Shown here: positions 5,102 to 40,212 of the stretch, piece after piece
Layout: each line of letters opens with the position of its first letter
How positions within the stretch are numbered: the stretch's first letter is position 1
Assembly (NCBI GenBank): GCA_025738555.1
Contig: JAOVFP010000003.1
Span: forward strand, 620,001-684,000
Direction: 5' to 3'
DNA: 64,000 nt
From: Cyathus striatus
Taxonomy: Eukaryota; Basidiomycota; Agaricomycetes; Agaricales; Nidulariaceae
The notes under the pieces: model-generated
What the model was told of the DNA's origin: nothing
What the model saw: the letters and a program-made list of their open reading frames with translations, nothing else
The model's database searches: none
Position numbers and translations under genes: made by a program

Positions 5102-6081
5102 CATAAGTGTCAGCCAATTATTTTCATTAAATGCCTAGGTTTTATGATCATGGTGATCATATAAGCTAGGCATTTTTTTTATGATCACTCACTATTATAT
5201 ATGTAGTAGTGAATGTATGATTACTAGTGAATGTATAAGTGATCATAAGTGATCTTTCAGTGTTTTAGTAGTGTTTCAGGTGGATATTTACTAACTACTG
5301 GTACTAATGAATGTAATGGTGATCATAGGTGATCATTAGGTGTTTCAAGTGCATATTCACTTATTACTGGTACTAAAGAATGTATATGTGATCATAAGTG
5401 ATCATTATATATTACAATAGCATATTATTTTGAATAATATTATATATATCACACATGTGACATATCTCGAACTCGTCACACATATTCCCGCACCTCACAT
5501 TGTTCCTGCACTTCACATTTGTGACATCCTTCTCGCGTCACGTCTGTCACGCATATTCCCGCGCATCACGCATATTCCCAGGCTTCTCGCATATTCCCAC
5601 GCATCACGCACATTCTCGCGCTTGATGCACATTCCTGCGCATCACATATTCCCACGCATCACATCTGTCACATTCTTTCTGTGTGTCACATCTGTCACAC
5701 ATATTCGCATGCATCACATTTGTCACATATATTCATACGCATGCATTCATTATTCACGCTGTGTGTCACATATATTCACACGTGTCACACTGTTCATGCG
5801 TGTCACGCTATTCATGCATGTCACATATATTCGCATGCGTCACGCTATTCACGCGTGTCACGTACGTCACATTTGTCATTTGTCACACTTTTAGCGCTCG
5901 TCACACATGTCACCTGCTTTCATTTGTCACACTTTGCACAACTATCATGCATTTGATGGTGTTACTCTTTGATTCACATTACATGTTTTATGTGTGTCAC
6001 TCATTATGCTTTTTGCATATGTTACATTTTTCACAATTTTCACAGCTCAGTAATGTAATTTGGCTTTTGATATTGACAATA
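5102..6081 (+). repeat. Left inverted arm of element A
   Basis: Inverted match to 7042-8031. The outer part carries TGATCANNAGTGATCA-type pairs at intervals; the inner part is the TGTCAC array. The inner arm end reads GGCTTTTGATATTGACAAT, mirrored at 7041-7062. Confidence 0.85.
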
Positions 6082-6165
6082 TATCAAAATTTGAAAGCTA
6101 TGGTAAGCAGGGAATACTCAGCAATAGCATGTGCATGGACCACTCCCTGATGCTGTCTGAGTAGT

Positions 6166-6240
6166 TACCTGGTTGATCCTGCTAGTAGTCATATGCTTGT
6201 TTAAAAGATGAAGCCATAAGGTTTAAGTATAAGTATAAAC
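6166..6240 (+). rRNA. Captured 5' fragment of 18S (SSU) rRNA, non-functional
   Basis: The sequence opens with TACCTGGTTGATCCTGC, the universal 5' end of eukaryotic 18S rRNA, and goes on TAGTAGTCATATGCTTG. In the first 35 bases the only difference from the usual SSU sequence is one C to T. Similarity continues more weakly through AAGCCATA and AAGTATAAAC to 6240. A weaker echo of the next SSU segment (GTGAAACTG near 6280) suggests the captured piece was longer and has decayed. It lies in the core of element A, in plus orientation. It cannot encode a working rRNA. Confidence 0.88.
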
Positions 6241-7041
6241 AATATATGTCAGAGATATAAGTACATGTAGCAGTGTAGAAGTGAAACTGATTGTGACACA
6301 ATATCAGTAAGAGTTGAGATAGTTTTCATTTTCTCTCTGTATCGATATATCACAAGATTATGTAGTCATATAGAGTAAGCAGATATGAATCAATAATGTG
6401 TATTGAAGATATCATTATAACCAATAGTGATACAAGAATAATAATCATCTAATAACTGAGATGTGTAGTTTGATGCTTTCACATTTTTTGTCCATGTGTG
6501 GGTCTATCACCAAATTGTTCAATATGAAAATGTTCAATAGCATCATATCACATCTCTAGTCTTGATTGTAAAATATCAGTGGACTTACATACACACTCTA
6601 CATGTTTCAATCTGGCTCCTTATTATTGTTACACTTCTATAATTTACTAATTGTCACATTTCTTGTTACAACCTTCAGTTTAGCGAGAACATGATTATTT
6701 CCTTTGCTTTAATAATTTACTCTGCACTGTTGGATACTTCTGTTCTGTAACAATTTGAACAATGGTATAGATATACAGGTAATCAGATACACATAATCAG
6801 CTTCTCTCCCTGGGTGTTAAGTGTTCAGTACATCATGATTCTCCTTCCTACTGTGCCTTCAGGCTCCACAAGTGTGAGTAAATGTCAGAAGCAATTCAAA
6901 TTCAAATTGAGAACATGAAAAACTTGATATGTGATATACATCAAAAACATGATATACATGAAAACCATGATGGGCTAGTAGACTATCACAGGTGATACAC
7001 TAAGTATCCCCCACTTAATATAGGTTCCACATCTAGATATG

Positions 7042-8031
7042 TTGTCAATATCAAAAGCCAAATTACATTACTGAGCTGTGAAAATTGTGAAAAATGTAAC
7101 ATATGCAAAAAGCATAATGAGTGACACACATAAAACATGTAATGTGAATCAAAGAGTAACACCATCAAATGCATGATAGTTGTGCAAAGTGTGACAAATG
7201 AAAGCAGGTGACATGTGTGACGAGCGCTAAAAGTGTGACAAATGACAAATGTGACGTACGTGACACGCGTGAATAGCGTGACGCGTGCGAATATATGTGA
7301 CATGCATGAATAGCGTGACACGCATGAACAGTGTGACACGTGTGAATATATGTGACACACATGAATATATGTGACACACATGAATAGCGTAATGCATGCG
7401 AATATATGTGACAAATGTGATGCGTGCGAATATGTGTGACAGATGTGACACACAGAAAGAATGTGACAGATGTGATGCGTGGGAATATGTGATGCGCAGG
7501 AATGTGCATCAAGCGCGAGAATGTGCGTGATGCGTGGGAATATGCGAGAAGCCTGGGAATATGCGTGATGCGCGGGAATATGCGTGACAGACGTGACGCG
7601 CGAGAAGGATGTCACAAATGTGAAGTGCAGGAACAATGTGAGGTGCGGGAATATGTGTGACGAGTTCGAGATATGTCACATGTGTGATATATATAATATT
7701 ATTCAAAATAATATGCTATTGTAATATATAATGATCACTTATGATCACATATACATTCTTTAGTACCAGTAATAAGTGAATATGCACTTGAAACACCTAA
7801 TGATCACCTATGATCACCATTATATTCATTAGTACCAGTAGTTAGTAAATATCCACCTGAAACACTACTAAAACACTGAAAGATCACTTATGATCACTTA
7901 TACATTCACTAGTAATCATACATTCACTACTACATATATAATAGTGAGTGATCATAAAAAAAATGCCTAGCTTATATGATCACCATGATCATAAAACCTA
8001 GGCATTTAATGAAAAAATTGGCTGACACCCC
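7042..8031 (-). repeat. Right inverted arm of element A
   Basis: Reverse complement of the left arm, with one extra array unit of about 20 bp near 7355-7395 and scattered C/T differences. The high arm identity suggests recent insertion or arm-to-arm gene conversion. Confidence 0.85.
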
Positions 8032-8404
8032 TTGCCCTTCTTTGTTGGTGGCTGAGCTGAGAGATCAGCAGCAGAAGTATCACACTTGCGAGTCTCACTG
8101 CAAGTCTTGCTGTGAGTCTCCTGTGTAGCTGAGAGTGGTGCAGATTCAGCAGGAAGAGTCCTGGAAGCCTGAGTGATAGCAGAACGAGTAGAAAGACAAG
8201 CCATTGTGTATAGATGTGTTAGAATAATTTGAGATAGTGAGATGGTGGTGGTTGAGAAGAAAGAGAAGGGGATTGATGCATACCAATACCTTGGAAGCTG
8301 CACAGCACACACATGATCAAAAGACTAAAAATATGAAGCATTTGATTAGCTATACTGAACACAGATAAATATATATTATATTTGATTGGCTACAACATGA
8401 TTAC

Positions 8405-9193
8405 ATAAACTACTTCAGCCCCCCCCCTCCCCGAAACACAGCCTTGAGAACACAGCCTTGAGGCAAGACAGCACAGGGGAAGGAGGTGAGGGGGTGGAGA
8501 TGAGGGGGTGGAGATGGCACAAGGGGAGGAGGCAAGGGGGTAGAGACAAAGGGGAGGAGACAGCACAGAAGGAGGGAACAAAGGGGAGGAGATGACACCT
8601 GTGCTTGTCACTTTCTAGACAGCACAGGGGGAAGCAGCAAGGGGAGGAGACAGTGCAGGGGGAAGAGGGAGAGGGAGGAGGTGAGGGGGAGGAGACAATG
8701 CCTGAGCTCATCACTTGCAAGATGGCACAGGTGGATGACATGAAGGGGTAGGAGGGGGGACAGCGATTCATCCTCGTCACTTGCAAGACAAGGCAGTAGG
8801 AGGAGTGGGATGCACACTCAACATTTGCGAGACAAGGTGCAAGGGAGGAGAGGAGACAGTCACTCGTCCTCATCACTTGTGAGACGAGGCAGTGGGAGGA
8901 GGAGGGGGACATGCACTTGTCGTTGAGACAGTGCATTGGAGAGGGAACAAGGGGAAGGAGACAAGGGGGAGATGGTGCAGGGAGGAGACATGGCAGGAGA
9001 CAAGAAAGAGGCCACACACTTGTCATTTGCAAGATGAGGAGGCAGAAGAGGGGGAAAGAACAGTCATCCTCATCACCTGTGAGACAAGGAGGCAGGGGAC
9101 AAGGGGGTGATGGCACACTCGTCCTCAGATGAGGTGACAGAAGAGGGGGGGGACACATGCTCATTATTTGTGAGATGAGGAGGTAGCAGAGGA
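8405..9193. repeat. G-rich minisatellite, left part
   Basis: Irregular tandem array of GGGGAGGAGACAGTGCAGGG-type units alternating with CTCGTCACTTGCAAGAC-like segments. The same motif resumes at 11955, so element B probably inserted into one continuous array. Long proline-, serine- or glycine-rich ORFs on both strands are products of the repeat. No gene is supported. Confidence 0.75.
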
Positions 9194-9202
9194 GGGGATG
9201 GA

Positions 9203-11945
9203 GTGGTGTTAGCCAAAATTATCATAAAAATGTAGTGTTTTATGATTGCTGCAATCATAAATAATGATCACCTTCATGATTATGCATTTTGAGAGCTTAT
9301 CCACCTACTAATACTAAATCTAATGGTGATCATAAGTGATCATTGGCTATTTTGAAGTGAATATTACTACTGTAGGTCTATTGTAATATGGTGATCATAT
9401 GTGATCATTGGCTATTTTGAAGTGAATATTACTACTGTAGATCTATTGTAATATGATGATCATATGTGATCATTGGCTATTTTGAAGTGAATATTACTAC
9501 TGTAGATATATTGTAATATGGTGATCATATGTGATCATTGGCTATTTTGAAGTGAATATTACTACTGTAGATCTATTGCAATATGGTGATCATATGTGAT
9601 CATTAGCTATTTGAAGTGAATATTACTATATTGTAATGTGGTGATCATATGTGATCATTGACTTATTTTGAATTGAAAATTATTACTGTATAAACAATCA
9701 TTGTTACTAATTGGATATTGCTATTGTAGTTCATGTCACATTTGTCATGATCTTTCTGCATGTCACATATTTCCCGTGCTTCTAATAATTCTCGCGCTCC
9801 ATATCATTCCCGCGCTCTAGATAATTCTCGCGCACCGCGCTTGTCACGATTGTCACGCTTTTTACACGCGTCACGATCGTCACGCTATTACATGAGTCAC
9901 AATTGTCACGCTTTTCACACGCTTCATGGCCGTCACGCATTTATGGCTGTCACAAATGTGACATATTTCTAGTGTGTCACGATTGTCAAGCCTTTACATG
10001 TCACATTCATCAACACTAGTGTTGGCATAATTAGTTAATGGTGGTCATATTATACACTATTCAATCTATATATGAGTTCATCAAATATTGATGGGGTCCC
10101 AACAAGTGTGCAATGACAATTGTTCCCATACCTTTCATGATCTAGGAATAAGAGTATTGTGTGACACCACATTTAATTCTCAGTTCATTGCTTAGCAATG
10201 TAATTCAGTCTTTTACATTGACTAGTCATTGATTGATCTGTCAACTGTCAATCATTGACACACACTTTTTTGACAGACGAGGTCTGATCCTGCCAATATC
10301 ATTGTTGCACATGACTATAGAAAAATGATAGAATGAATACTAATACTAAAAGAGTGAGTAGAAGTGAAACTGATTGAGACACAATAAGACAGTTTTTATT
10401 AACTCCTCATTTCAATAAAACATAGAAAACTATCATGTAGTTATATAGAGTCAGCAGTTATGTGATTTGGTAATGTGTGTTGAAGATATTAGTATAATCA
10501 ATGGCTAATGCAAGAATCATAATCATCTATAGGCTGTAATGTGTAAGTTTAATGTAATGTGGAATCACATCTATTCACTATCTATTCATATGTGTTAAGC
10601 ATGCAAGGTTCTATATTCTTCTCTGTCTGGTTGGTACATGTTTCCATAATGTTCAATACCATTGTAATGACCCTAACCATTATGGTTATTATTTTGTCAT
10701 TTTATCACATCTACAGTCTTGATTGTAAAACATGGCATATTCCAAATATATCATACACTCTAAATAGGACTAAAACTCCAACTACATATACACTCTACAT
10801 CCTGTAATCTAGTTTCTTATTAATGATACACTCCCATAACATTATATTTGTCATATACTGTGTTACAACCTTCAATTCTACAAGTGCATATTCATTTACT
10901 CTGATTTTTAATAATTTGCTCTGTGGTTTCAGATACTTAATCTGCTTCTGTAATAATTTGGATGGTGATACAGACATACCAGAAACTGCACATGTGGCTG
11001 GCTTCCCTTGTTCAGAGTTAAGTTTTAGATACCACACAAACTCTCTTCTTAACTATGTTCTTGGCTCCACATATGTAAGAGACAATAATTATTACACATA
11101 TCTATTGCTGTTATACTTTGTGTCAGATAAACAAAGTTAAAATAATTTACATGACATTAGAGGCTAAAAATGTGATAGCTGTATGCATGAAAAATTGTGA
11201 CATGTTGGAAATATGTCACAAATGTGATGAGCATAAACACATGATAATTGTGACACATGCGAAATATGTCACACATGTGACAGGCTTAAATGCGTGACAA
11301 TCGTGACGCATGAAAAAAGTGTGATAATCGTGACGCATGTAAAAAGCGTGACAATCGTGACGCGCGGGAATAACGTGACAAGCACAGTGCGCGGGAATTA
11401 TTTAGAGTGCGGGAATGATGTGGAGCACGAGAATTATTTGAAGCGCAGGAAATATGTGACACATGGGAAGATCGTGACAAATGTGACATGAACTACAATA
11501 GCAATATCCAATTAGTAACAATGATTGTTTATACAGTTATGATTTTCAATTCAAAATAAGTCAATGATCACATATGATCACCACATTACAATATAGTAAT
11601 ATTCACTTCAAATAGCTAATGATCACATATGATCACCATATTGCAATAGATCTACAGTAGTAATATTCACTTCAAAATAGCCAATGATCACATATGATCA
11701 CCATATTACAATAGACCTACAGTAGTAATATTCACTTCAAATTAGCGAATGATCACATATGGTCACATTATAATATAGTAATATTCACTTCAAAATAGCC
11801 AATGATCACTTATGATCACCATTAGATTTAGTATTAATAGGTGGATAAGCTCTCAAAATGCATAATTATGAAGGTGATCATTATTTATGATTGTGGCAAT
11901 CATAAACCACTACATTTTTATGATCATTTTTGGCTGACACATATG
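9203..11945. mobile_element. Foldback element B, MULE-like, 9-bp TSD
   Basis: Element of 2,743 bp, from GTGGTGTTAGCC (9203) to GGCTGACACATATG (11945), in opposite orientation to A and D by its asymmetric ends. It is flanked by GGGGATGGA (9194-9202) and GGGGATGGG (11946-11954), a 9-bp duplication with one G/A difference. The arms are about 9203-10015 and 11150-11945. The outer module holds five copies of a 65-bp unit, TGGTGATCATATGTGATCAT plus spacer, at 9391, 9456, 9521, 9586 and (shortened) 9641. The inner module is a TGTCACG array (9735-10000). The core (10016-11150) is homologous to that of A but more diverged. No transposase ORF is present. Confidence 0.83.
10279..10300 (+). other. Diverged 18S rRNA 5'-end remnant in element B
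   Basis: GGTCTGATCCTGCCAATATC sits at the same place in the core as the 18S start in element A and keeps TGATCCTGCC. Immediately downstream, A and B share AGAAGTGAAACTGATTG (B near 10360, A near 6275), so the two cores are homologous. B alone would not be convincing as rRNA; its identity rests on alignment to A. Confidence 0.55.
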
Positions 11946-11954
11946 GGGGATGGG

Positions 11955-12440
11955 GATGGACATTTGTCCCTGTCACTTGCAAGACAGTGCAGGGGGACGA
12001 GGCATGGGGGAGAAGATGAGGCCTGCACTTGTCAGTTGTGAGATGGTGCAGGGGGAGGAGGCATGGGGGAGGAGATGAGGCCTGTGCTTGTCAGTTGCAA
12101 GATGGTGCAGGGGGAGGGGGTGGGGCAGTGGAGACAACACATGTGCTTGTCTTTTGCAAGATGGCACAGGGGGAGGAGGTGTGGGGGAGGAGACAACACC
12201 TGTGCTTGTCATTTGTGAGATGGCACAGGGGGAAGAACCATGGGGGAAAAGACAAGGCCTGTGCTCATCAGTTGTGAGACAGTGCAGGGGGATGAGGCAT
12301 GGAGGAGGAGACAATGCTTGCACTCGTCAGTTGTGAGATGGCACAGGGGGAGGAGGCATGGGGGAAAAGACAAGGCCTGCACTCGTCAGTTGCAAGACAG
12401 TGCAGGGGGAGGAGGTGGGGCAGTGGAGACAATGCATGCG
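11955..12440. repeat. 59-bp tandem minisatellite
   Basis: About eight copies of a 59-bp unit, approximately TTGTCAGTTGCAAGATGGTG followed by a CAGGGGGAGGAGGCATGGGG-type half and a GGAGAC/AGGCCTG tail. This is the continuation of the array at 8405-9193, on the far side of element B. Overlapping ORFs in several frames are artefacts of the repeat. Confidence 0.78.
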
Positions 12441-13501
12441 CTGATATGCAGGCTATATTGTAAACGTACCCTTTATAAATTCACGTTCTTAATTAAAATA
12501 AGAACTTCGGACCGAGTGTGTTAGAGTAGGGACACGAAAGGAGGAACCGAGTTCCCGGGTTGTCTCCTAAAAAACTAAACAAGGGATTAAAATGAAAACA
12601 TATAAAAAGTGCAATACTCTGCCTTGGTCTTGAGCTTACAGCCTTAACAAATACCTACTTTTTCATTTTCTATTTTACATTACAATACACAGCCTGGAAT
12701 GTGCTATTTCCCAACTAAAATAGATGAACCAAAGAAACTTATGGAAACACTAGAATAAAAGCACACATGACTTACAGAACCCTAGAACTCGATTTGAAAG
12801 GTACAGACACAGTGACCAAAATACTTGATGATGATGGCATGTGTAGAAAGGGATGAGAGCAATGTAGTGATGGCGTGTTGACAAAGAAAGCGAAGACACA
12901 TCACACATCACTGCCACAGTTTCCGAATTAGGAAGGTGCTTATGGAAGCACGCATGCGCTGTCGCAATAGTGCAATAGATAAGGAATGTGGTAGCGCCGT
13001 ATGATTGGCTGCACACAGATGGGCTGGTGCTCCGTGCTGACTCACTCCGGACCTAGAACTAAGCTACCATAAGGGTAGAAAAGTACCATAGATAGGGAAC
13101 TGTAAAATAAGTGTGGAGTAATTGTATATAGATGAGTGAGGAGGGAAAGAAACAGTAAGAACTGCCAGGCATTCTTACGTCCCACAGATAGGGTTGTTCA
13201 GATGAGATACAGATGAGATTTAGAAATAGTTACAAGATGTTTAGACACTAAGAACTATGTACTGAGTTTGCTGAATTGAAACTGAATACTTTGACTTTGA
13301 ACACTTTGACACGTACCAAAAATAAACCGAGTTTACTTGTTCTAATTTTAACATGTTCTAAATTTGGAATAGACATAATTATGCCCCTTGAACTTACTGA
13401 AATCACACCTCAGGATTTAAGTATTATTATTGTATTAAGGATTTCTATTCTAAGTACTTAAGAATTACTTAAACTTGTAACATGACTCAACAGCACTTGT
13501 T
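12441..13501. other. Non-coding block, possible solo LTR
   Basis: About 1 kb without a convincing ORF and with more CpG than the flanking repeats. It begins near TGATATGCAGGCTATATTG and ends just before repeat E. Polymerase II-like signals (TATATAAAAAG at about 12600, AATAAAACCG at about 13320) would fit a solo LTR, but no TG...CA ends with a target duplication were found. Confidence 0.25.
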
Positions 13502-14035
13502 ACCTCAGACAGGACTGAATCGGGGCGGGGTAAATATGGTACAAACAGATTTTCTTAACAATTAGAATGTGTATCAAAATCAGCTCCTTGAACAGATTCA
13601 TGTTCATATTTAGAAAATAATGATGGATTGGTTCTAAACCCATATCGCGCTTCCATATTGAGAAAATGACAATAGAACAAAGGTAGAATCTGTGTGAAAA
13701 ATTGGTTGTTAATGCAGATTCTTGCACAAATCCTGAATTGGGACGCACATTTGTTCACTGATCCTATCTAAACACAGATTCTGGCTATGTTCAGCGCCCC
13801 TATCTTATCACACATTCAGAATTTGTCCTGGTAACAGAGTCTGGATTGGTTCGTTCATCAGATCCACTTGCCAATTCTAAATGTAATCAAAAATATGTTG
13901 TCCTACCCTATGTATGTGCAGATTGTAAATATGGTAACATATCATATTGATTGTCCCACTCACAGGGCCACTCACAGGCCACTCACACCCGCTCATAACC
14001 CACTCAACTCCCCACTCCATCCCCACTCAACTACA
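13502..14035 (-). repeat. Dispersed repeat E, copy 1
   Basis: About 535 bp, nearly identical to 34910-35441 in inverted orientation. One end is TGTCTGAGGT, the other a short GAGTGGGG/GAGCGGG tandem tract (13955-14030). The body is full of AATCTG/CAGATT motifs. The 82-codon ORF present in both copies has no recognisable domain and lies across these motifs, so I do not call a gene. Confidence 0.8.
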
Positions 14036-14189
14036 TATATACAATTTCCCGCACCGTAAATATGTCCATATTTGCAAAGACATAGAAAATGAAAATTTGA
14101 AACTCTACTCAAGCTCCTGTGCCATGAACGACCCTGGCTTCTTTCCTCTTCATTACAGATCCTCCTTCAGCTGCAGATGTGACCAGTGT

Positions 14190-14733
14190 TCAGCGACTTT
14201 TTCGGAAATTTCGCATTTTGATCTTGATAATATCAAGAATGAGCCAATTGCTGTCATATTTGCGAATATCAGGATATCGACCTGCAGCCTTCAGAAGCGG
14301 TCGTTAGATAATGTCACAATAATTTGTGGAAAGATGTACCTTCTCACATACAATGTCAAGTTTACTGCTTTCCTGAGCAGCGTAAGTAATTCCGAAATCC
14401 AACTCCTCGTGGGCTAATTGAATAATATAGTTCTGCATGTCACAATGGTAAGAAAATAAATATTGCTCTGAAATAAATTATCACCTCTATATCGCTAAGC
14501 CGCTCCTGGCTGCATTCCACATGGTCAACTATTTTATAATTTTTTCCTGCCTCACCCCGGGGTTTAGGAATAAGTACTCCAGAGCTTGTTGACGGTTCAG
14601 TGTCCTCTTCTTGGGGAAAGCAAGTCCTAAGAGTGCATGGAGGTGAGCTCAGAATACGTTCCGGCGAAAATCGTGAGCATATAGTCAATGGAGAAAAATG
14701 GCGCAAAACACGGTAGTTTCTAGTGGCAGGCAT
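14190..14733 (-). CDS. LIPKPxGE-family protein, copy 1
   Basis: Small intron-containing gene. ATG at 14731-14733 (MPATRNYRVLRHFSP). Exon 1 ends SQERLSDIE just before GTGATAATT. Exon 2 contains LLTLLRKAVNLTLYVRR. The last exon reads GRYPDIRKYDSNWLILDII and ends RNFRKSR at a TGA (14190-14192). The hallmark is GVLIPKPRGEAGK. This block plus a C-terminal 'FP-x-YE-x-W-x-DLL'-like segment defines an uncharacterised multicopy Agaricomycete family that I recognise but whose function is unknown. The related gene at 24374-24938 supports the model. It looks intact, though exon joints are by eye. Confidence 0.6.
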
Positions 14734-15251
14734 TTTTAACGTACACATCGTGATATAGATGTGTACTTATAGTCTGAGAAACAAAAAAGAAGATAATTAA
14801 CAAGGAAGGAAACATGTAGAATTCAGAACAATATCGCCTCACCAAATAAGAATAGATGGGTTGGTATGGAGAATGAGACAATAGAGTTCTGGAGGTACTA
14901 TTCGGTCGAGGACTGAACAATAAAGTATGTTAAATGCAGTAATACACCGACACTATAGGCTACTAGAATTTGACGTTGCCTCATAATTTGACGTTGCCAG
15001 TGATTATCTTGCGGCAACGCCGGGCAACGTCACAGAAGCATGAGGGGCGTGCTAGTGTAGCTGTGATCAAAGTCGAAGGGTGAGGTATATGGTGTAGAAG
15101 TAGAACAACGGTGTGGGGTGCGAGTGGGAGAGACAGGCCATGGCTAAGCGCTGAGGTGGATGTGATGTGGTCATGTAAGATGGGGGTGGTGCAAAACCGT
15201 GAGGTGGTGGTGCTGCGAGACGGCGTAGTGTTGCTGGTGGTGATACATTAT
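14734..15251. other. Intergenic, 5' of the LIPKPxGE gene
   Basis: CpG-containing spacer. It includes a duplicated TTTGACGTTGCC pair (about 14967-15000) and GCAACG motifs nearby. I see no gene. Confidence 0.4.
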
Positions 15252-16343: not shown

Positions 16344-16379
16344 CAGATAAGGTAACGAGGCCAGTGATGATGAGAGGCG

Positions 16380-17120
16380 GGAGAAGGGGACACTGTGGTC
16401 GTAGAAGACAGCCATCGTGATGCAGACACAGGGAAGGGGGCGGTCATAGCAAGACGAAATGGGGAGAAGGCGACGGCATGGAGTTGTCCGGACAAGGCAG
16501 TGGTGGGAGGAGGTGGGAGAAGGGGACCGCAGGGGAGGGGCGGACAGGGCCTACGATGCGCAGACGAGACGTGACGTAGCAGGCGGCGTTGACTCGAGCT
16601 AGGGGAAGGGGCTGACCTGGCTCCGATGTATGCGCGTGGCATCAGTATCACATGGCAGAATGGAACGTTGAGGTGGGGGGGCGTTGAGGTAGGGGTCGGT
16701 GAGGAGGCGGTGGTGGTGGCAGAAAGGAACACATTGAGGTGGGGGACGTTGAGGGTAGGGGACGCGTGGTAGAGGATGCGTGCTCGTTGAGATGGGAGGC
16801 GTTGAGGTAGGGGACGGGTCAGCGAGGAGGCGGTGATGGTGACAGCAGAAGGAAGCGAGTTGAGGAGGGGGATGTTGAGGTAAGGGTCGAGTTGGCGAGG
16901 AGGAGAGATGCGGCACTGGGTCGCTGAGATGTAGGTCGAGGACTGGGGGAGCAAGAAGAGTCGTGAGCGGGGCGGCGTTGTGGAGGCGTCGGTGTAGGTG
17001 TAGCCGTCTACGCTGTGGGGCGGTGTTTGGGGGGGGGGAGTAGATCGTGGGTGGGGGAACGTCATCGTTGTTGGTCGTTGGTTAGTCGTGGGGGGGGGAA
17101 GTAGGCCAAGTGTTGTCACC
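16380..17120. repeat. Degenerate G-rich minisatellite
   Basis: Degenerate tandem repeat of CGTTGAGGTAGGGGACG-type units with GGCGAGGAGGCGGTG spacers. A 268-codon Pro/Ser/Thr-rich minus-strand ORF lies across it and is a consequence of the repeat. No splice-consistent gene or domain was found. Confidence 0.6.
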
Positions 17121-22805: not shown

Positions 22806-23648
22806 CATCAGTGCAGGTAATGACAAATATGATAGGTGTGACATGTGTGACATACACAACAAGTGTGACAAGTATGACAAATGCAACATACATGACATAC
22901 GTGACAGGTGTGACAGGTGTGACGTACATAACAGGTGTGACATACGTGACATACGTGACATATGTGACAAATATGTGGAGCGTGACATTCGTAACACTCG
23001 TGACATATGTGACGAGCGTGACAGGTGTGACATGTGGGAAAATGTGATATTCCTATATTCATTTATAAATTAATATGCTATTATTTATACAATGATCACT
23101 TATGATCACTTTTACATTTATTAGTATTAACTAGTAGGCATTATGCACAATAATATGCTATTATAACATATCATGATCACATATGATCACTTCCACATTC
23201 ATTAGTATTAACTAGTAGTCATTACACACTATAATACACCATTATACTATACCATGATCACTTATAATCACTTCCACATCCATTAGTATTCACCAGTAGT
23301 CATTACACACTATAATATGCTATTACAACATACCATGATCACTTATGATCACTTACACATTCATTAGTATTCACTAGTAGTCATTACACACTATAATACA
23401 CCATTATATCATATCATGATCACTTATGATCACTTTCACATTCATTAGTATTCATTAGTAGTCAATATGCCCTTTAATATCCATCATACACTATTATAAC
23501 ATCCAATGATCACCTTTGATCACTCATACATTCATTAATAATAATGAATACCGTTAGATTTTAGCAGTGATCATGGAAGTCAGGGATTTTGTGATCACTT
23601 TTTCATAAAACCTGGGCTTTTTATGATCCAAATTGGCTGACACTTATG
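22805..23648. mobile_element. Half foldback element C (one arm only)
   Basis: The right end reads GGCTGACACTTATG (23635-23648), the same terminus as elements A and D. Moving inward there are five or more copies of an 81-bp unit with TGATCACNTATGATCAC (at 23093, 23174, 23255, 23336, 23418), then a TGTGACA array (22825-23040). There is no second arm, core or 9-bp partner for the adjacent GGTCTCATA. The array stops abruptly against the Plavaka C-terminal coding sequence, so one arm, the core and most of the Plavaka catalytic region seem to have been lost together. Confidence 0.72.
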
Positions 23649-30557: not shown

Positions 30558-30869
30558 ATAACACCTACACGCCTTAAATAATGATATCGAACTATGGACA
30601 TAAAACTACGCGCATTAAAAAATGATATTAAACTATGGCTGGTCTTGATTTGTATGTTAGACAATACAAGAGTGTATTGCCTTGAATATGAGTGCACGGG
30701 GAATGGAGCGGGGAATGAGCGGGGAACATGTGGGGATATCACGTGCCGGAAGAGTCTGCCCTAAACATTTTCATATCCAATAAATAGAAGGCAGGTGTTG
30801 CGGGTTCTTACCTTAATAGTTTCATTGCCCTGACATCACAGTAGATACTCTAGCATACTCTAGTATACA
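30558..30869. promoter_or_regulatory. Upstream region of the Spt5-like gene
   Basis: 311-bp spacer. It contains ATTAAAAAATGATAT and CTTAAATAATGATAT repeats (30580-30630), a GGGGAATGGAGCGGGGAATG tract (30696-30730), and TATA-like AATAAATAGAAGG (30780-30790), about 85 bases before the ATG at 30870. Promoter function is inferred from position. Confidence 0.3.
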
Positions 30870-33823
30870 ATGGCCGAAGACAATTGCGCACTGAATCTAG
30901 ATGGTAGCTTGAAGGACGCGAGTCAGATTCAATGGTATTTTGACCCTGATGATGAAGTACCTCAACCTCAGCAGAGAAAAGCGAAGAGAGCTAAAGTAGC
31001 GGTAATGAACCAATCTGAATATAGTAATGCAATCATTAACACCAGGGCATAGACATTTTTAGATCTGGAAGCTCAAGTGGGTTCTGACTCTGAGGATGAA
31101 GATGACGAAGAGCAACTGGACGGTATGTGTATAAAATGGCAATACTTGAATGCAATGTTCTGATTGAGAGTCATTTTTGTAGAATTTATTGTAGATAACG
31201 AAGATGACGATGAAGATCCCAACATTCCTGTTTGCCGGCTGGAGCTAGCACACTCGGTTCAAGCTGAACGACAACCAGAAATTATCGGCCGTCTCTATGA
31301 AAAGTATGTCGCCTCATGCGGAGGTGCACATTCGCTTGCTGGACCTAGTTCAACAACCCCCATAAGCAAGCACAATGTTGCCCATCGCAGTCGAGTAGCT
31401 GTTAAGGTCAGTGAGTTGCAATCGTTGACGAGTATCTGATTCACATTTTGTAGAACGGATCAGAGGAACGGATTGTATACCAGCTCAATTTACATGCTGG
31501 TCCCAAGCACGTTCGAAGTGCCTTTTCATTGTCCGTTATCCCAGGGCACATTTACGTCGAGGCTCTTAATCTTGAGGAAATTAAGAAGTGTACCAAAATC
31601 TTTGGCGAAGTCGACCAGTCCCGTATTCATTGTGCACCAAATATTATGTGGGATACTTATCTTGGAAACGTTGGAGCGAGCTATACACCCTACAAGCACA
31701 CTTGGGTACAACTCAAAGGAGAATTCCGATATGACCTGGCGTTTATTATAAACGTCTGCGATCACACATTTCGGATTGACATTGTTCAATTGCCTCGAGT
31801 AAAATACACAAATTCATCCAAACGAAAGCAGCCGTCGTCGTCGTCGAGCTCGAAACCACCCTGCAAGCTATTCAACCCTGACCTTGCAAGGCAAACATGC
31901 CCGGATAAGTTCAAAGTCCAATATGAAGACGCCGATAATAAAATTGTAAAAGGATATATATTTCGAGGGTCGTTTTATACGGCTGATGGGTTCTTACTAC
32001 ATCGGGAAGTCGATTCTGACGAGTACTATCAAGTCGAAGGGATACTGACAATGGAAGAACTGAGATCCTTTGATTGCTGTAGCCACATTCCTAAAGAGGT
32101 TTTAGAGCAGACAAGGCGGGCAGTATTATCGGCAAATATACGTATACACGATCAGGTAAAGGTTGTCCTTCAAGGAATAGTTTCGCTGGCCTTCATCGAA
32201 GACATCACGGAAGAAAATGCGACGATAAGACTCTTTCATTCACCAGATGATCTTTTCGAATATCCATTAAATTTACTTGAGAAGTGCTTCAAAATTGGCG
32301 ACGGAGTTAGGGTAAAGTCTGGCGTACACAAAGGAGTTGTCGGTATGGTCACAAGTGTGGAAGCATGTGGGCGTATAGGCGAGGAAAATATTACAGTTGT
32401 CGCCTTTCCGTTAAAGAAGGCAACTTTGAATCCACTTATGCCAGATTATTTTTATTCTGACCGATTAAGCAGGGAAAACACGTACCAGTTCACTCCTCAG
32501 ATTTGGACTTCTGTAGCGAAGTTCATAGAAATAGTACATTTAGGTGGGAAGATAGTAATGACGCAAGCACCGCAGATGCATCTGGTAGTCAGACTGTTGA
32601 GGATAGGCTCATGCATAATGATCCATATCAGTCGCTTTATGGGTTATATGGCATGGTCACCTCTGGTCCTCAAAAGGGGGATATTGGGATACTAAAGAGT
32701 GTCAATGCTAATGGTCACGCCGAGCTTCAAGTTGAAGCCCGCCTGATAAGTACGGGAAAACTTGAAGAAGTTTCAATAGCAGATTTATATATTCCTGGGT
32801 ATTTACGCATCTCAATATGCATTCCAATCTATAAAACTAAGAAATTATTACAGATACAACATTTCGAATATATTGCCAATATGCATTCCAATCTATAAAA
32901 CTAAGAAATTATTACAGATACAACATTTCGAATATATTGCCATTTGATCTCGAAGGAGCTACAGATCATCCTTCACAGAGTGTCTGTATGACACCTGCTT
33001 GGGAAAATGATTCTGGGATCGGGTCCCAAACACCGGCTTGGGATCCTAGCTCTAGAACCCCGCAAGTAAGTACTTATAATTACATTTGCAAAGGATTGAT
33101 TCTTGATCATATTTGGATTAGATTTCCAATGTTGTATCCGCCGAAGAGCTTGCCTACCCCCATCGAAGTTAGTTACTCATCTTGATGTTGTCGTACATCA
33201 CTAATAGCAGTTAATAGTTCCAGAAAACGTAGCCTCAACATCTGCCTTGCAAGCTTCTACTCCTCTTCCAAACTCGATGAGAATGGCTGTTATTGGTGAA
33301 GGGTCATCTGCTCATGATGCTTCTGGCAGATGCATTCAATAGTGTGTATCATTCTTACAGTTCTGGAATATTGACCAATATTAATATCTTCGTAGGCCAT
33401 TGGATAAATCAACTTCTCGAAGCAGACAGCTCATTTTTGGATCGCAGATATCTTCATGTGGTTATCTCAGGATCTCTGCCGACTGCTGCTAGCTCTGAAT
33501 TCGAAAGGGGACGATATGAAAAATGCAGCGGTACCTACCTGGGATTGGTGAGAAGTAATAGATCTATCCGGGTGGAAATAACAGGCGGACAAGAACTTGA
33601 ACTCCCAGCGGAGTATGTGCACCCGGAGGCCCCTAGTAGGAAGGGAGAACGTGTAATGGTTGTAAACCGTCGTAACCACCAGTTGTACAGGGAAGTATTC
33701 ATGGTACTTGGCCTGACAGAACACGGAATTGAAGTCTGTCCTGTAAAAGGACAGAACATAGCAAAAAAGATGCGTGTTGTACCAGCTCAGGATCTCGGAG
33801 TATTTGTAGAAAAACTTTTTTAA
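30870..33823 (+). pseudogene. Spt5-like (NGN/KOW) protein gene with disruptions
   Basis: Plus-strand multi-exon relative of transcription elongation factor Spt5. ATG 30870 (MAEDNCALNLDG); acidic N-terminus (VGSDSEDEDDEEQLD, then DNEDDDEDPN); NGN-like domain (HVRSAFSLSVIPGHIYVEAL, 31500-31800); KOW-like motifs (VRVKSGVHKGVVGMVTSV near 32310; YGMVTSGPQKGDIGILKSV near 32645; last one near 33500-33560); and Spt5-type C-terminal repeats MTPAWENDSG and TPAWDPSSRTP (32985-33062). Spt5 with Spt4 clamps RNA polymerase II. Such divergent extra copies are frequent in mushrooms. Breaks: TAG at 31050-31052 (CAG expected) between NTRA and TFLDLEAQ, and a frame change near 32490-32510 that no normal intron clearly explains. 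It ends FVEKLF at 33821-33823. It could still be expressed if unrecognised introns remove the breaks. Confidence 0.68.
32817..32944 (+). repeat. 64-bp tandem duplication carrying a 3' splice site
   Basis: ATGCATTCCAATCTATAAAA through ATATTGCCAAT occurs twice in a row with a 64-base period and no visible differences. Each copy holds intron end ATTATTACAG followed by ATACAACATTTCG. The Spt5-like gene therefore has two identical candidate acceptors, the second giving YNISNILPFDLEG in frame. It looks recent. Confidence 0.85.
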
Positions 33824-33854
33824 GCGCATGCCTTTATGACATCTTGGACATTGC

Positions 33855-34672
33855 TCATGTATTATAATTTTTTGTTTGAATTGTTGAAAGATGAAGAGTC
33901 CCTTCGTCATTGATGATGCAAGATATTTCGTGTATATGTCGCCAGTCCTTTGCAGATTTGTATACTCGAACAGTAACATCCTTATTTCGCGGCACCTTCA
34001 CTGTGGTATGTCGAGGTTTCGTAGAATATGTTACATTTCTAACCACATCCATAAATGTATCAGATTTCATGTGTGTTAATTGTAGGGACTCGATGTTCTG
34101 TGTTACTGCTTCTGGTGTGTCGCGATCTGTTAGTTCATAGGGGAGGTGCTGATACTGAAAATTAGTGTGGCTTGGATGTTCGTGTACTCTGTAGGATATC
34201 CAGGATACTCCATGAGATAGGCAGAAGGGAAGCCTTAGGACATACCTCTTTTTTTTTCGTTTCGGCAACTCCTCGTGTTCACCTTCGGCCAATCGTTTTC
34301 TCGAGCTGGAAGTATTTCCTCTGTAAAACAATATCAGTCGGTGAATTTTGACATTTGAAGAGAAGTCTTAACGACTAACCTTGTTTTTTTTCTTTTTGAA
34401 GACTCTTCATGTTCGCCTTTCGCCGGTCGTTTCCTTGAGTTAGGAGCTGTTGATAATGTTTTGGTTTGACCTTTCTTATACGCAACAAGTGTGACTATGA
34501 AGTCGTTCTTAATTGGTAACCCTGGCTTCCTTCGACCAGTCACTTGAACATTCACATGATTGTCTTTACAAAGTTGCTGAAGAATGTGGTATGGGAAGGA
34601 CCTGAGTGCAGATTCACGAACAACAGCTCTTTGAAGAACCCGTTCTGCTTCCTGGATCGACAAGTTAGACAT
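33855..34672 (-). CDS. SAP-like nuclear protein with duplicated basic exon
   Basis: ATG at 34670-34672 (MSNLSIQEAERVLQRAVV). Residues about 20-70 (LRSFPYHILQQLCKDNHVNV, then LPIKNDFIVTLV) resemble a SAP helix-loop-helix DNA-binding motif. Two basic exons follow that are related copies, SRKRPAKGEHEESSKRKK and SRKRLAEGEHEELPKRKK, both with nuclear-localisation character. The C-terminal exon (33855-34160) has LPYELTDRDTPEAVTQNI. It is convergent with the Spt5-like gene, with stops only 31 bases apart, so the transcripts probably overlap. Introns at about 34323-34375 and 34160-34245 have GT/AG ends. No stop was seen. Confidence 0.55.
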
Positions 34673-34909
34673 TGTGACTTAACGACTCCAGAATAAACCA
34701 TGACTATAAGTATTCAATGCTAGATATGATGCCGGGCACTTGCCGAGCCAAGCTTGTTATCCTCTTTTATAGCATATAAGTATGTTATTGTTTCTTATTG
34801 TATTCTCAATCACTATTACTACGAAGAGCTTATAATACGTAACATTCACTGTCCTATACAATCTAACCTCCTGGCTCTACCATATCGCGGCTCCGTCCCT
34901 GGGCAGGAA

Positions 34910-35441
34910 CTGAGTGGGATGGAATGGGGAGTTGAGTGGGTTATGAGCGGGTGTGAGTGGCCTGTGAGTGGCCCTGTGAGCGGGACAATCAATATGATAT
35001 GTTACCATATTTACAATCTGCACGTACATAGGGTAGGACAACATATTTTTGATTACATTTAGAATTGGCAAGTGGATCTGATGAACGAACCAATCCAGAC
35101 TCTGTTACCAGGACAAATTCTGAATGTGTGATAAGATAGGGGCGCTGAACATAGCCAGAATCTGTGTTTAGATAGGATCAGTGAACAAATGTGCGTCCCA
35201 ATTCAGGATTTGTGCAAGAATCTGCATTAACAACCAATTTTTCACACAGATTCTACCTTTGTTCTATTGTCATTTTCTCAATATGGAAGCGTGATATGGG
35301 TTTAGAACCAATCCATCATTATTTTCTAAATATGAACATGAATCTGTTCAAGGAGCTGATTTTGATACACATTCTAATTGTTAAGAAAATCTGTTTGTAC
35401 CATATTTACCCCGCCCCGATTCAGTCCTGTCTGAGGTGTGT
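34910..35441 (+). repeat. Dispersed repeat E, copy 2
   Basis: Inverted counterpart of 13502-14035, beginning with the GAGTGGG/GAGCGGG tract (34910-34985) and ending TGTCTGAGGT (35441). Identity is very high, for example in AATCTGCATTAACAACCAAT. The core of element D has a related stretch (about 38690-38750: CTAATTGTTAATAAAATCAG ... CCTGTCTGAGGTGT). Confidence 0.8.
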
Positions 35442-36300
35442 CATCTGCAAAACAGCACACCAGGGGGAGAAAATGGGACAAAAAGATAAAAAAACTGACC
35501 TGTTAGTCCTGTATGTGTTCTCACACACACAACCATCGTCATTTAAGATTAAGTTAATCTAAGGTGCTAACAGGAATCAACTTTGTTTGTGTTACAACAC
35601 CTGAGTGTCAAGAAATATTTAGCGAGGATATTCTTGAAAATTTGGTAGGTGGCCCTGTACAGCAAGAGCTGTATGAATTGTATGAAATTTGGTATGAAGG
35701 GTTATGTACATCAAAGGCTGTATATAATGACAAGTATAATGAAAGGGGTATAGTACACACTATAGACTTAATGCTATATCTGATGTGTATATTGTATAGA
35801 TCAATGTTCAACTTGCTTAGAACTTGACCTATGATCTGCTTATTATTCTGTTACTGTTACTCTGACTGTAACTGTGACTTCTGACTAATACTGTGACTGT
35901 TACTGATCTGTTTACTGTTGCTGATACTGATACTATTTCTGACTGGACTGGCTGTGCTGATAAAACTGTACTAATAACTGATGACTAATGACAAATGGGT
36001 GAGACTACTGGGGGGTGGGTAGCTATCTATCAACTGCCAAACTGCTCTCCTTATATACCTTTTCCCAACCTGCTTAGTAATCCAATTCCCACTCTACCAT
36101 CCTACATTGTTCTCCAAAACAAGTAGTGTGCAAGTGTAGATTTTAGATCTGAGGCTGTACAGGACAATGGTATTTGAGGGTTAGTCAGCAGAGTACAATA
36201 GCTTATGTTAGAACAATGTATAATGAATTACATTGTTCTAAATAAAGAGCTACATTGTTCTGGGCAAGAACAATAGGAATCCATTTTTATAACAATGGAG
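35442..36300. other. Non-coding AT-rich stretch
   Basis: A short ORF at 35564-35827 (MLTGINFVCVTTPECQEIFS) has no recognisable domain, and I do not call it. 35830-35990 is a run of CTGTTACTGT/ACTGAT-type simple repeats. TATATACC at 36052 could be a TATA element of an unrecognised repeat. Confidence 0.35.
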
Positions 36301-36605
36301 TAGTGAACAATAGATACCTATCTGCCATTGTGTGAACAATGGCAGTGAAAACAATAGTGTCATATATAAATAGTTTTGCATTGTCCTCAAACAATGGGTG
36401 AATAACACAATGTAGTTCATTAGTTATGAACAATAGGATTGAAAACAATGGAGTTGTATATGAATAGTTTTTCTCATTGTCTTCAACAATAGGTGAATAG
36501 TACAATGCAGTTCATTAGTTATGAACAATAGGATTGAAAACAATGGAGTTGTATATAAATAGTTTTCTCATTGTCTTCAACAATAGGATGAATAACACAA
36601 TGAAA
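36300..36605. repeat. 95-bp tandem repeat with ACAATGG/AACAATAGG motifs
   Basis: TTCATTAGTTATGAACAATA begins at 36416 and again at 36511, giving a 95-bp period. An older copy precedes (36300-36415) and a partial one follows (to 36605), about 3.3 copies. ACATTGTTCT inverted half-motifs lie just upstream (36210-36265). No gene. Confidence 0.7.
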
Positions 36606-37201
36606 GAGTGTCATATTATCCTTTGTTAGTGCATTGTTTGTGCAAGCAATTAATTATTGATATGTGTATGATGTTTAATGGTGATTTAAAGTTATTTGTT
36701 CATGTAAGGTATTGGTTTGTTCATGTATGGTATTGGGTATATTTGATTAGTAGTGTATTGTATCATGTGATGGTGTGAAGTATTCAGTCATGTGACATGA
36801 AAGTGCAATTTCTTTAATTGTGGTATACAGTGCATTTGCATGCATTATATATAATCAAAAATTATGCCTGACACCATTCACAGAGCTCCCTGCCAACCAC
36901 CTATTATTGGTCTTGTAATCAATTCATTGCCTGCCAAAACAGATAGTTTGAGGCAACAATGTGAGACCGTAGAGTGGGCTTGAAGCGATGACATGGGACC
37001 GTGAGTGAGCTTGAGGTGACGACAAAGTGGGAATATTGAGGCTGGCGCTAGGCGACGAAGAGGGAATGGTGAGGTGGGCTTGAGGCAATGACATGGGAGC
37101 TTGAGTTGTTGACATGGGAGGGTGAGGTGCTGACGTGGGAGAGAAAAAAAAGTGCTTGGGAAAAAACATACCATATGAGGAAAGTGCAATATCACTGGTG
37201 G
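36606..37201. repeat. AT-rich spacer and G-rich minisatellite left of element D
   Basis: 36606-36860 is AT-rich and non-coding. 36950-37150 is a short tandem array of GAGGTGGGCTTGAGGCAATGACATGGGA-like units of about 28 bp. The 105- and 103-codon minus-strand ORFs across it are proline/leucine-rich readings of the array. The short splice-like context SDIALSSYG before GTATG (about 37180) could be an exon end of an unknown gene interrupted by D. Confidence 0.5.
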
Positions 37202-37210
37202 TTATGTAGC

Positions 37211-40200
37211 CATAAGTGTCAGCTAAAATTTTCAAAAAATGCTAGGTGGAATTGATTGCCTCAATCAATTTCACCTGGCATTTTTTGAGTGCCTATTATT
37301 GTATGGTAATGATCATAAACAATCAATAGTTGTTCTAATTGAATACTACTATTGTATGAATATTTCAGGTGATCATAAACAATCATTTATTGTTTCTAAT
37401 TGAACACTACTGTTGTGAAATCTATCAGGTGATCATAAACAATCATTAGTTGTTCTAATTGAATACTACTATTATATGAATATTTCAGATGATCATAAAC
37501 AATCATTAGTTGTTTCTAATTGAATACTACTATTGTATGAATATTTCAGGTGATCATAAACAATCATTGATTGATTCTAATTGAATACTAATACTATATG
37601 AATGGTTTAGATGATCATAAAAATTGAATATTATTATTGTGTTAATCTCTTAAGTGATCATAAACAATCATTGATTTGTTCTGACTGAATATTACTATAG
37701 TATGAATGTATTAAGTGATCATAAACAATCATTGATTGTTTCTAATTGAATATTACAATTGTATAGGTGTAGTAGCATCACATATGTCACAGTCACATTC
37801 TTACTGCGCGTCACATATGTCACAAATATTCCTGCGCATCACATTTGTCACGTTCTTAGGCGCGTCACACATGTCACAAATATCCCCATGCACCGCATTT
37901 GTCACGTTCTTACTGCGCATCACATATATCACACTTATTCCCGCGCATAGCATTTGTCACATTCTTAGGCGCGTCACGTATGTCACAAATATTCCCGTGC
38001 ACCGCATTTGTCATTCTTCCTGCGCATCACATATGTCACAAATATCCCCGCACATCACATTTGTCAAGTTCTTACATGCATCACATAAGTCACACTTATT
38101 CCCATGCTTCACATCTGTCACGTTTTTACGCACATCACATATGTCACATCATTGATGCGAATTATATATATTACACTTGAAACACACATTACAGTCTATA
38201 ATACCCTTCACACATGTCACGCTTTAAGCGCGTCACATCTGTCACATTTTCGACGCGCGTCACAGTTGTCACGCTTTAAACGCGCGTCACATCTGTCATA
38301 TTTTCGACATGTGTCACAGTTGTCACACTCGAAACACATGTCACATCTGCCATATCTTTGATGTGTGTCACATTTGTCAGGTTTAAGATTTGAAGATGTG
38401 ATACATTTGTTTATGAGGTGCATTGCATATTTCACACATGTCTTGTTGGTATCCAGTTTTTTATCATCTCAGACAAGGGTGAATCAGGTTGATGAAGATA
38501 TTGTACAATCTGTTTTTCTTATCAATTAGAATATCTGTCATAATGTGTCAGATTACCAATCTGTCAGCAAATTCTAAATATGCACAACAATATAGCTGTC
38601 TGATTTATGTACAATATTTTCAATAATCTGAACCCATCCATTTGTTACTACATCTGTCACACTACAAATTTAACAGTATTTCCTAATTGTTAATAAAATC
38701 AGAGTGCACCACATTTTCCACAACCCAATTTTGGCCTGTCTGAGGTGTATGTGTGTAACATCTTTCAAGTTCATTGCAAGCTTTCACAAATGTAATGCTT
38801 AAAGTGCATTTCTGCACCTCAGATTTGTTATATTTTGTTCTAAAATCCCATGTGGGGTATGTTCTGTTTATCTGACCCAGAACATAAATACAATTATAAG
38901 GTACTGAACCTTGACAGCCAAGTTTTGAAAGGGTACAAAATGTTTTATATTCAGGACTAGAGATGTGATGAAATGGCTAAGTAATAACTATAAAGATTAG
39001 TCTGGATGTGAAAGATGATGATGTTGTGGATAACATATACGATAAAATGATGAATATATGTGATTTCACATACACCAAACTTATACATCTCAGATATTAG
39101 ATGATCTTATATCTCCAACTCATATAATTGAGTCACATATCAGATTACTCTATATGGACCCCTGGTTATAATAGATAGTGATTATGCAACAAATAGGGGT
39201 AGCTGACTGTATGCAATAGACTGAGAGTGAAATGTGGCATCACTTAGTGCTGATTCTTTGGTTATGAACTGTATCAGAATATTTCCATAATGAACTTGTT
39301 CAAACCTCATCAATGTGTTACCATCATGATATATATGACATGCTATTCCATGCATGTTCAAAGTGTTACAAACATAATACATATAAAGAATGTAAACATC
39401 AAATCATGATGCATACCTGACAAATGTGACGCATGTTTAAAGCGTGACAAGTGTGACGCGCGTCGAAAATGTGACAGATGTGACGCGCTTAAAGCGTGAC
39501 ATGTGTGAAGTGTATTATAGACTGTGATGTGTGTTTCAAGTGTAATATATATAATTCACATCAATGATGTGACAGATGTGACGCGCATTTCAAGCGTGAC
39601 AAATGTGATGCACCTCGAACATGTGACAAATGTCACGCGCATTCAAAGCGTGCCAAACGTGATGTGTGGGAAATATTTCAAGTGCGGAAAATATGGATGC
39701 ATGGGAATATGTGTGACATATGTGACGCGCGGGAAGAACGTGACAAACGCGATGTGCGGGAATATTTGTGACATATGTGATGCGCAGTAAGAACGTGACT
39801 GTGACATATGTGATGCTACTACACCCATACAATTGTAATATTCAATTAGAAACAATCAATGATTGTTTATGATCACCTAAACCATGATATAGAATTAGTA
39901 TTGAATTTGACACAATTAATGATTGTTTATGATCACCTGAAATATTCATACAATAGTAGTATTCAATTAGAACAACTAATGATTGTTTATGATCACCTGA
40001 TAGATCTCACAATAGTAGTATTCAATTAGAAGCAATAAATGATTGTTTATAATCACCTGAAATATTCATACAATGGTAGTATTCAATTAGAACAACTAAT
40101 GATTGTTTATGATCATTACCATATAATAATAGGCACTCAAAAAATGCCAGGTGAAATTGATTGAGGCAATCAATTCCACCTAGCATTTTTTGAAAATTTT

Positions 40201-40212
40201 AGCTGACACCAC
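37211..40212. mobile_element. Foldback element D, MULE-like, 9-bp TSD
   Basis: Element of 3,002 bp, from CATAAGTGTCAGC (37211) to GCTGACACCAC (40212). It is flanked by TTATGTAGC (37202-37210) and TCATGTAGC (40213-40221), 9 bp with one T/C difference. The outer modules have tandem units of about 60 bp containing GATCATAAACAATCATT (left arm 37371-37740; right arm 39850-40120). The inner modules are TGTCACA arrays (37780-38380 and 39420-39810). The core (about 38400-39415) has no transposase ORF and holds a segment related to repeat E. The terminal sequences match A, B and C although the arms are otherwise diverged. Confidence 0.84.

Follow-up and report, generated by a model that had tools for sequence, protein, structure and literature searches.

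Foldback elements with two different tips and 7-bp target-site duplications in Cyathus striatus, very probably mobilized by a KDZ transposase

Three foldback elements and the tips of their family

The window, that is the whole stretch of 64,000 nucleotides analysed here (Cyathus striatus contig JAOVFP010000003.1, positions 620,001 to 684,000), contains three elements, A, B and D, which belong to a large family of foldback elements in this 107-Mb genome. Arm and tip analysis confirmed the long inverted arms and asymmetric ends described in an earlier note on this DNA; all three places were right, but the R tip turned out to be 2 bp longer, giving 5102-8033, 9201-11945 and 37211-40214. The features are as follows.

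5095..5101, + strand: left duplication of A, GCTCTTC; the sequence at this place is GCCCTTC in each of the six empty host copies retrieved
5102..8033, + strand: element A, 2,932 bp, with L tip CATAAG on the left and R tip AAGGGG on the right
5107-6121 and 7000-8028: arms of A, inverted, 96.5%
8034..8040, + strand: right duplication of A, GCCCTTC, one mismatch to the left copy (flank comparison and empty copies)
9194..9200, + strand: left duplication of B, GGGGATG, a perfect match to the right copy (flank comparison)
9201..11945, - strand: element B, 2,745 bp, with R tip GAGTGG on the left and L tip CATATG on the right
11946..11952, + strand: right duplication of B, GGGGATG, inside a GGGGATG tandem tract, which makes its register ambiguous
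23635..23648, - strand: a fourth L tip, unpaired, CATAAGTGTCAGCC, overlooked by the earlier note
37204..37210, + strand: left duplication of D, ATGTAGC (flank comparison and empty copies)
37211..40214, + strand: element D, 3,004 bp, with L tip CATAAG and R tip GAGTGG
37216-37590 and 39836-40209: arms of D, inverted, 93%
40215..40221, + strand: right duplication of D, ATGTAGC, a perfect match to the left copy (flank comparison and empty copies)

The outer arms of B contain 65-bp tandem units and D contains units of 60 bp; parts of the B core are common to A at 75-79%. Long open frames within the arms of A look repetitive, and no KDZ gene was seen inside A, B or D themselves. R-tip scans revealed no partner near the fourth L tip, and its 7-bp flank, GGTCTCA, was not found a second time close by. 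A single copy of a host repeat contains both A and D, with B lying between these two, a nesting that the earlier note does not mention; no tRNA was found in this repeat by ARAGORN (bacterial code).

The L tips of the family are of the type CATAAG-TGTCAGCC and the R tips of the type GAGKGG-TGTCAGCY. Searching the genome with the terminal sequences, as the earlier note had suggested, showed both to be widespread: the L tip CATAWGTGTCAGCY had 435 matches as compared with one for the reversed pattern, and the R tip GAGKGGTGTCAGCY had 277 as compared with three. Insertions showing a clear duplication carried a different tip at each end, the LL sample consisting of three of 14 LL pairs (several others being built from tips of tested LR pairs) and the RR sample of two pairs chosen by eye from the R-tip matches. 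The view of a single transposon family, asymmetric at its ends, flanked by target-site duplications and divided into several diverged subfamilies, was upheld.

Target-site duplications and empty sites

Forty-one LR pairs were tested for duplicated flanks, and 29 of them were identical over exactly 7 bp, three had one mismatch and nine showed no match. Among the first 34 pairs, 24 were exact at 7 bp and two had one mismatch, whereas shuffled pairings gave a mean of 0.79 and a maximum of 6; exact matches at any length from 8 to 12 bp were found in none of the 34. In the 26 pairs with at most two mismatches, the columns inside the 7 bp matched in 25-26 of 26 and those just outside in only 6/26 and 3/26. 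Seven further pairs with variant tips yielded five exact matches and one with a single mismatch. The list of LR pairs likewise comprised 41 pairs, of which 32, including D and the 17-kb element K3 described below, entered the first duplication test. Of the nine outside it, four were longer alternatives that had one tip in common with a tested pair (a KDZ place lies within one of the four, C1:1169594), two were 22-23 kb in length, one of these holding a hAT domain, and three were other pairs. Exact 7-bp matches were also noted by eye at C3:337445 (locus L044), one of the last three, and at L041, L042 and L046, which lie outside the lists; they were not counted.

The 9-bp duplication proposed in the earlier note was thus rejected, and duplications of a different length, which that note had itself named as counting against its proposal, are what the flanks revealed. 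Element D and the family flanks decide for 7 bp: at the D site the C of the right flank is replaced by T in all six empty copies, which would be expected of a C that belongs to the tip. At A alone the two lengths are indistinguishable, since its R tip ends in TT and the empty site likewise reads TT. The single transition formerly seen in each flank pair is a real difference inside the 7 bp only at A; the pairs of B and D are perfect at 7 bp, their apparent transition being due to two tip-adjacent bases counted as flank. Empty copies of the host repeat were located elsewhere in the genome, and these paralogous sites carry one copy of the flank for A and D, in accordance with the earlier expectation. 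Empty paralogous sites fit K3 as well.

Full-length relatives with KDZ exons

K3 (C3:1980708-1998016, 17,309 bp) has the family tips and a perfect 7-bp duplication (TCTACAC on both sides); its inverted arms measure about 1.57 kb and include an array of 23 copies of a 69-bp unit. Two empty copies of its site are gapless at 97%. Between its own tips it holds KDZ exons (PF18758, E 1e-13 and 2e-39) and, just upstream of these, CxC2 exons (PF18803, E 2e-12 and 2e-20). The autonomous copy sought by the earlier note was found in so far as a relative of full length does carry the gene for a transposase, although this gene is KDZ rather than MULE and is disrupted in K3 by an early stop codon and by a break in the frame. 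Further open frames of K3 have no Pfam match; seven K3 frames gave no Pfam family, and neither did a single frame taken from the first 9.9 kb of the K2 region. K2 (C2:1201755-1218948) follows the same plan, its KDZ region being 72% identical to that of K3, and is 94.5% alike to C2:2359086. A near-identical twin of K3, C3:2024640, has a stop in CxC2; it shares the L flank with K3, and the two diverge exactly at the R tip. The twins lie in an inverted duplication, possibly an artefact of assembly. K2 and C3:2024640 lack matching 7-bp flanks, which leaves K3 as the sole clean insertion of full length, and no intact copy of the gene came to light between these tips. Four KDZ copies, K2 and K3 among them, have the motifs DANF, YDIGCQ and GEE[VI]ETTW (the last also written GEE.ETTW), which may represent the D-D-E-like catalytic residues.

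The ends of A match those of K3 over the first 305 bp (89.5%) and the last 303 bp (88%), so that A has the ends of such an element around a different interior. In the same comparison with K2 and K3, no counterpart was found for the inner parts of the arms or for the cores of the three elements, B matched K3 only in arm repeats and D had no match. Arms with tandem units, i.e. an anatomy of the foldback type, were seen in A, B, D, K2 and K3.

The candidate transposase and comparison with known systems

KDZ had 159 matching stretches in the genome and hAT 151. For each domain, places were hand-picked among the matches listed, one row per gene, on C1-C5, where the R-tip list is complete. Five of the 34 KDZ places thus obtained lie within 5 kb of an inward R tip, 2.5-4.0 kb inside it, as compared with 0/34 in each of three control geometries; as the five include the twins K3 and C3:2024640 as well as the similar pair K2 and C2:2359086, they represent about three independent lineages. 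Four further KDZ places lie 8-13 kb from an R tip. For the remaining 29 places an exact R tip was absent from the nearest 5 kb; these may belong to other KDZ families or to decayed copies. All three tested LR spans longer than 17 kb contain KDZ.

It is very unlikely that the family consists of hAT7-type elements, even though 7-bp hAT families exist and are known in rust fungi, according to part of a published account (PMC12730594), and hAT domains are common in this genome. Only one of the 51 listed hAT places has the right geometry, and among 38 LR spans compared none holds a listed hAT place, while three hold KDZ. In the 22-kb LR span C1:8431049-8453387, one of those outside the duplication test, a hAT domain does lie 4.7 kb inside the R tip, but a copy of the core of A (C1:8451182-8451595) is situated between the two, so that this tip may be that of some shorter element. 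A similarly small probability attaches to the KDZ genes being passengers, nested in a family moved by another transposase in the unannotated interior of the 17-kb elements, a reading favoured by the open frames of K3 that lack a Pfam match. KDZ copies that have diverged to 71-81% DNA identity share their orientation and their position 2.5-4.0 kb from the R tip, which separate nesting would hardly explain, and the duplication length reported for the KDZ element Kyakuja is 7 bp (PMC12730594, passages on that element). Foldback elements of the P superfamily, like Galileo of Drosophila, would agree in architecture and duplication length (PMC3573991, in its description of Galileo), but are highly improbable, as the full-length elements contain KDZ and the P-element domain gave just four weak matches, on C6, C10 and C20, with the R-tip list complete only for C1-C5. 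Both hAT and P were rejected as movers on the strength of rather weak tests. The Mutator-like assignment of the earlier note, suggested by the foldback arms and by flanks of A, B and D that seemed nearly to match over 9 bp, was dropped as extremely improbable given the duplication length (0/34 exact pairs at 8 or 9 bp versus 24/34 at 7), the T/C difference at D and the absence of any genome match to the MULE domain PF10551 at E 0.001.

Thus, A, B and D are very probably non-autonomous foldback members of a cut-and-paste family moved by the CxC2-KDZ transposase of the relatives of about 17.2-17.3 kb. They are best read as foldback derivatives of a Kyakuja-like KDZ transposon, the likeness to Kyakuja being drawn from its published description. 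The enzyme would recognize one tip of the L kind (CANNAG-TGTCAGC) and one of the R kind (GAGKKG-TGTCAGC), which would be brought together via sites repeated along the arms, in arrays of 60-102-bp units rich in TGATCA; it would then cut, and join the element to staggered target cuts 7 bp apart. There is about an even chance that this KDZ lineage is directional, i.e. that transposition needs a CANNAG end paired with a GAGKKG end, with the arms as putative binding-site arrays from which foldback families without genes arise. Such a two-tip requirement may have one-ended events as a by-product, K3 and its near-twin C3:2024640 being an example, and that two different tips are required is a sharp and easily tested prediction. 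KDZ elements constitute much of the DNA-transposon content in at least one mushroom genome and are called understudied by the authors of that work (PMC8290104, in part); for one KDZ lineage the ends and empty sites are now available, together with its 7-bp duplication and numerous relatives that lack genes.

The passages of PMC12730594 on Kyakuja-1_LB and Kyakuja-2_LB of Laccaria bicolor describe KDZ elements with 7-bp duplications, CA..TG termini, no TIRs and a TET/JBP gene. The present family agrees in transposase, fungal host, duplication length and the 5' end CA, but its termini are CA..TC (CATAAG...CCMCTC), its inverted arms measure about 0.4-1.6 kb and contain tandem arrays, and no TET/JBP was recognized in the K3 frames scanned. 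KDZ1, KDZ2 and KDZ3 of Cryptococcus neoformans, as far as described in the relevant part of PMC12810828, are likewise TIR elements whose KDZ transposase has an N-terminal cysteine cluster; they differ in length of TIRs (139-241 bp, in elements of about 9-11 kb), in duplications (8 bp for KDZ1, 4-8 bp for KDZ2 and KDZ3) and in having CxC1 instead of CxC2. Zisupton and Dileera belong to the same superfamily, but their duplications are given as 8 bp (PMC12730594, in part), a length exact in 0/34 pairs here. Relative to these known kinds of KDZ, the long tandem-repeat arms and the two different tips are, on the best reading, new.

Outside the superfamily, Tm1 of root-knot nematodes, Mutator/Foldback by the title of PMC3169594, has the foldback character in common, but no MULE domain match accompanies it here. 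Galileo comes close in anatomy: its arms are long and internally repetitive, its duplications are of 7 bp, and some copies lack genes or are chimeric with unmatched flanks; it has a transposase of the P superfamily, and its description in the part of PMC3573991 drawn upon makes no mention of different tips at the two ends. In the family described here an anatomy of the foldback type accompanies a transposase superfamily that is neither Mutator nor P, in keeping with the idea of a convergent origin of long repetitive arms.

Foldback elements and their tips

The genome surveyed comprises 107.45 Mb in 24 contigs (numbered from C1), with the window at C3:620001-684000. Direct reading and self-comparison confirmed the three 3-kb foldback elements recognized earlier in the window:

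5102-8033, plus strand, element A (69-bp tandem unit in the arms)
9201-11945, minus strand, element B (65-bp unit)
37211-40214, plus strand, element D (60-bp unit)

Their arms are long, inverted and internally tandem-repetitive, and A and B have core parts in common (75-79% identity). The core of A gave 40 scored genome matches including itself, from 378 candidates, the best non-self matches being 92% identical across the full query.

The pattern of the CATAAG-like end (L tip), CATAWGTGTCAGCY, matched the genome 435 times and its reversed form once, while that of the GAGKGG-like end (R tip), GAGKGGTGTCAGCY, matched 277 times against three for the reversed control. A less biased census of six bases (first not A, last G) preceding TGTCAGCYAA totalled 829 vs. 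40. The first 100 entries of its listing all lie on C1; of these, 54 were L-type (CATAAG 45; CATTAG, CATGAG and CACTAG 3 each), 38 R-type (GAGGGG 19, GAGTGG 16, GAGGTG 3) and eight others, most commonly TTAGGG (4). Outside TGTCAGC the R tip thus comprises six bases, where the earlier reading had four. Adjacent outward-facing tips of the census list lying <8 kb apart were unlike (LR) in 23 of 25 cases, with one LL and one RR pair, whereas some 48% would be LR under random pairing (binomial P about 5e-6).

Target-site duplication and empty sites

With the R tip taken at this length, the 7-bp flanks were identical in 24 of 34 LR pairs, differed by one base in two and were unmatched in eight, whereas shuffled pairings of the same set gave a mean of 0.79 (maximum 6) at one mismatch or fewer. 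As none of these 34 pairs matched exactly at 8 to 12 bp, the 9-bp duplication proposed in the earlier note has to be replaced by one of 7 bp. Adding seven LR pairs whose tips are variants (five exact, one with one mismatch, one unmatched) brings the duplication to 32 of 41 (29 exact, three with one mismatch); it is exact for B and D, with one mismatch for A. It occurred in none of five same-tip pairs (three LL, two RR), a small, hand-picked sample.

Both A and D are flanked by repetitive sequence, 13 listed rows spanning A's junction and 28 that of D, with the window excluded. In six fetched copies of this host repeat the junctions of A and of D each align to a single copy of the flank, a single-base gap adjoining A's junction in one of them; no alignment crosses the junction of B, which sits in a tandem tract. 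The comparison with empty sites suggested earlier, performed here on paralogous copies, therefore holds for A and D, and an empty site for B is unproven. All six copies read GCCCTTC at A's site, indicating that A's left duplication copy is the changed one.

A and D occupy one host-repeat copy (4488-40566) with B between them, and their sites are 32 kb apart in the window against about 1.3-3 kb in the six other copies. This copy also carries:

12443-35438, insertion of about 23 kb, perhaps a large TIR transposon
13502-14029 and 34911-35437, 528-bp inverted repeats inside it, 99% identical
35537-36872, another insertion of about 1.3 kb, ACCAT at both junctions

Host sequence continues from 12442 to 35439 in four of the six copies, and alignments overlap there in the other two.

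KDZ genes in full-length relatives

The family had been assigned to Mutator-like elements; the MULE domain PF10551, however, has no match across the genome, and KDZ (PF18758) is present instead, in 159 matching stretches with exons counted separately. Three LR spans of 17.2-17.3 kb contain a KDZ gene. K3, a KDZ-bearing relative (C3:1980708-1998016) read throughout, has both tips, TCTACAC flanking each side, and arms of roughly 1.57 kb (85%) containing a 69-bp unit in 23 copies. Its flanks, joined at one 7-bp copy, gave a gapless 97% match over 200 bases at two other places. Its exons matched CxC2 (E 2e-12 and 2e-20) and KDZ (E 1e-13 and 2e-39). A premature stop and a break in the reading frame of the gene make it likely that this copy is no longer functional. 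A resembles K3 over the first 305 bp (89.5%) and last 303 bp (88%), with nothing matching between. K2 (C2:1201755-1218948) follows the same plan, with a repeat unit of 102 bp; its KDZ region shares 72% identity with that of K3, but the 7-bp flanks on its two sides do not match. Four KDZ copies contain DANF, YDIGCQ and GEE.ETTW, their putative catalytic motifs.

A near-identical KDZ element lies in opposite orientation at C3:2024640-2041956. It has 246 bp or more of flank in common with K3 on the L side (99.8% over 1,246 bp), whereas on the R side the two flanks part immediately beyond the tip, at the first base. The pattern could stem from a rearrangement at one end, a chimera or an artefact of assembly.

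On C1-C5, an inward R tip was found within 5 kb downstream of five of 34 KDZ places (at 2.5-4.0 kb) and not of the other 29; three control geometries gave 0 of 34 each. These five include one pair of near-identical twins and another pair at 94.5% identity, and thus represent about three lineages, mutually 71-81% identical. Movement by a hAT transposase is less well supported: one hAT place, in a 22-kb LR span outside the duplication-tested set, shows the right geometry, but it is one of 51 on these contigs, against five of 34 for KDZ. A P-type transposase is a poor candidate, its domains giving few and weak matches in the genome.

Beyond the directly observed tips, duplication, empty sites and KDZ genes within full-length elements, KDZ may bind sites repeated along the arms, pair one L tip with one R tip and insert the element at staggered cuts 7 bp apart. 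TGATCA, at 8-27 per kb in the outer arms (boundaries as delimited by us) vs. 0-0.9 per kb inside, is by its distribution consistent with a candidate binding site, though no proof of one.

Other features of the window and known relatives

1833-2696, minus strand, open frame with CxC5, a KDZ transposase-associated cysteine cluster
53232-55386, minus strand, retrotransposon frames with reverse transcriptase and RNase H domains (protease matches under the curated cut-off)
56034-57083, inverted-arm structure, 97% complementary
58539-59315, minus strand, PIF1-like helicase frame, possibly of Helitron origin
61483-62780, inverted-arm structure, 84% complementary

Family tips are absent from the ends of both inverted-arm structures, one of which has CTGGACTC and TGTGACA repeats while the other is AT-rich.

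We found no report of foldback or long-TIR KDZ elements in the openly licensed papers searched, which does not imply their absence from print. Kyakuja of Laccaria is reported to have 7-bp duplications and CA..TG termini and no TIRs (PMC12730594), Cryptococcus KDZ1-3 have TIRs of 139-241 bp, with duplications of 8 bp (KDZ1) or 4-8 bp (KDZ2, KDZ3) (PMC12810828), and a Marasmius genome paper states that KDZ TIR motifs were characterised, in its supplement (PMC8290104). Galileo has a comparable foldback anatomy and duplications of 7 bp, with a transposase of the P type (PMC3573991).
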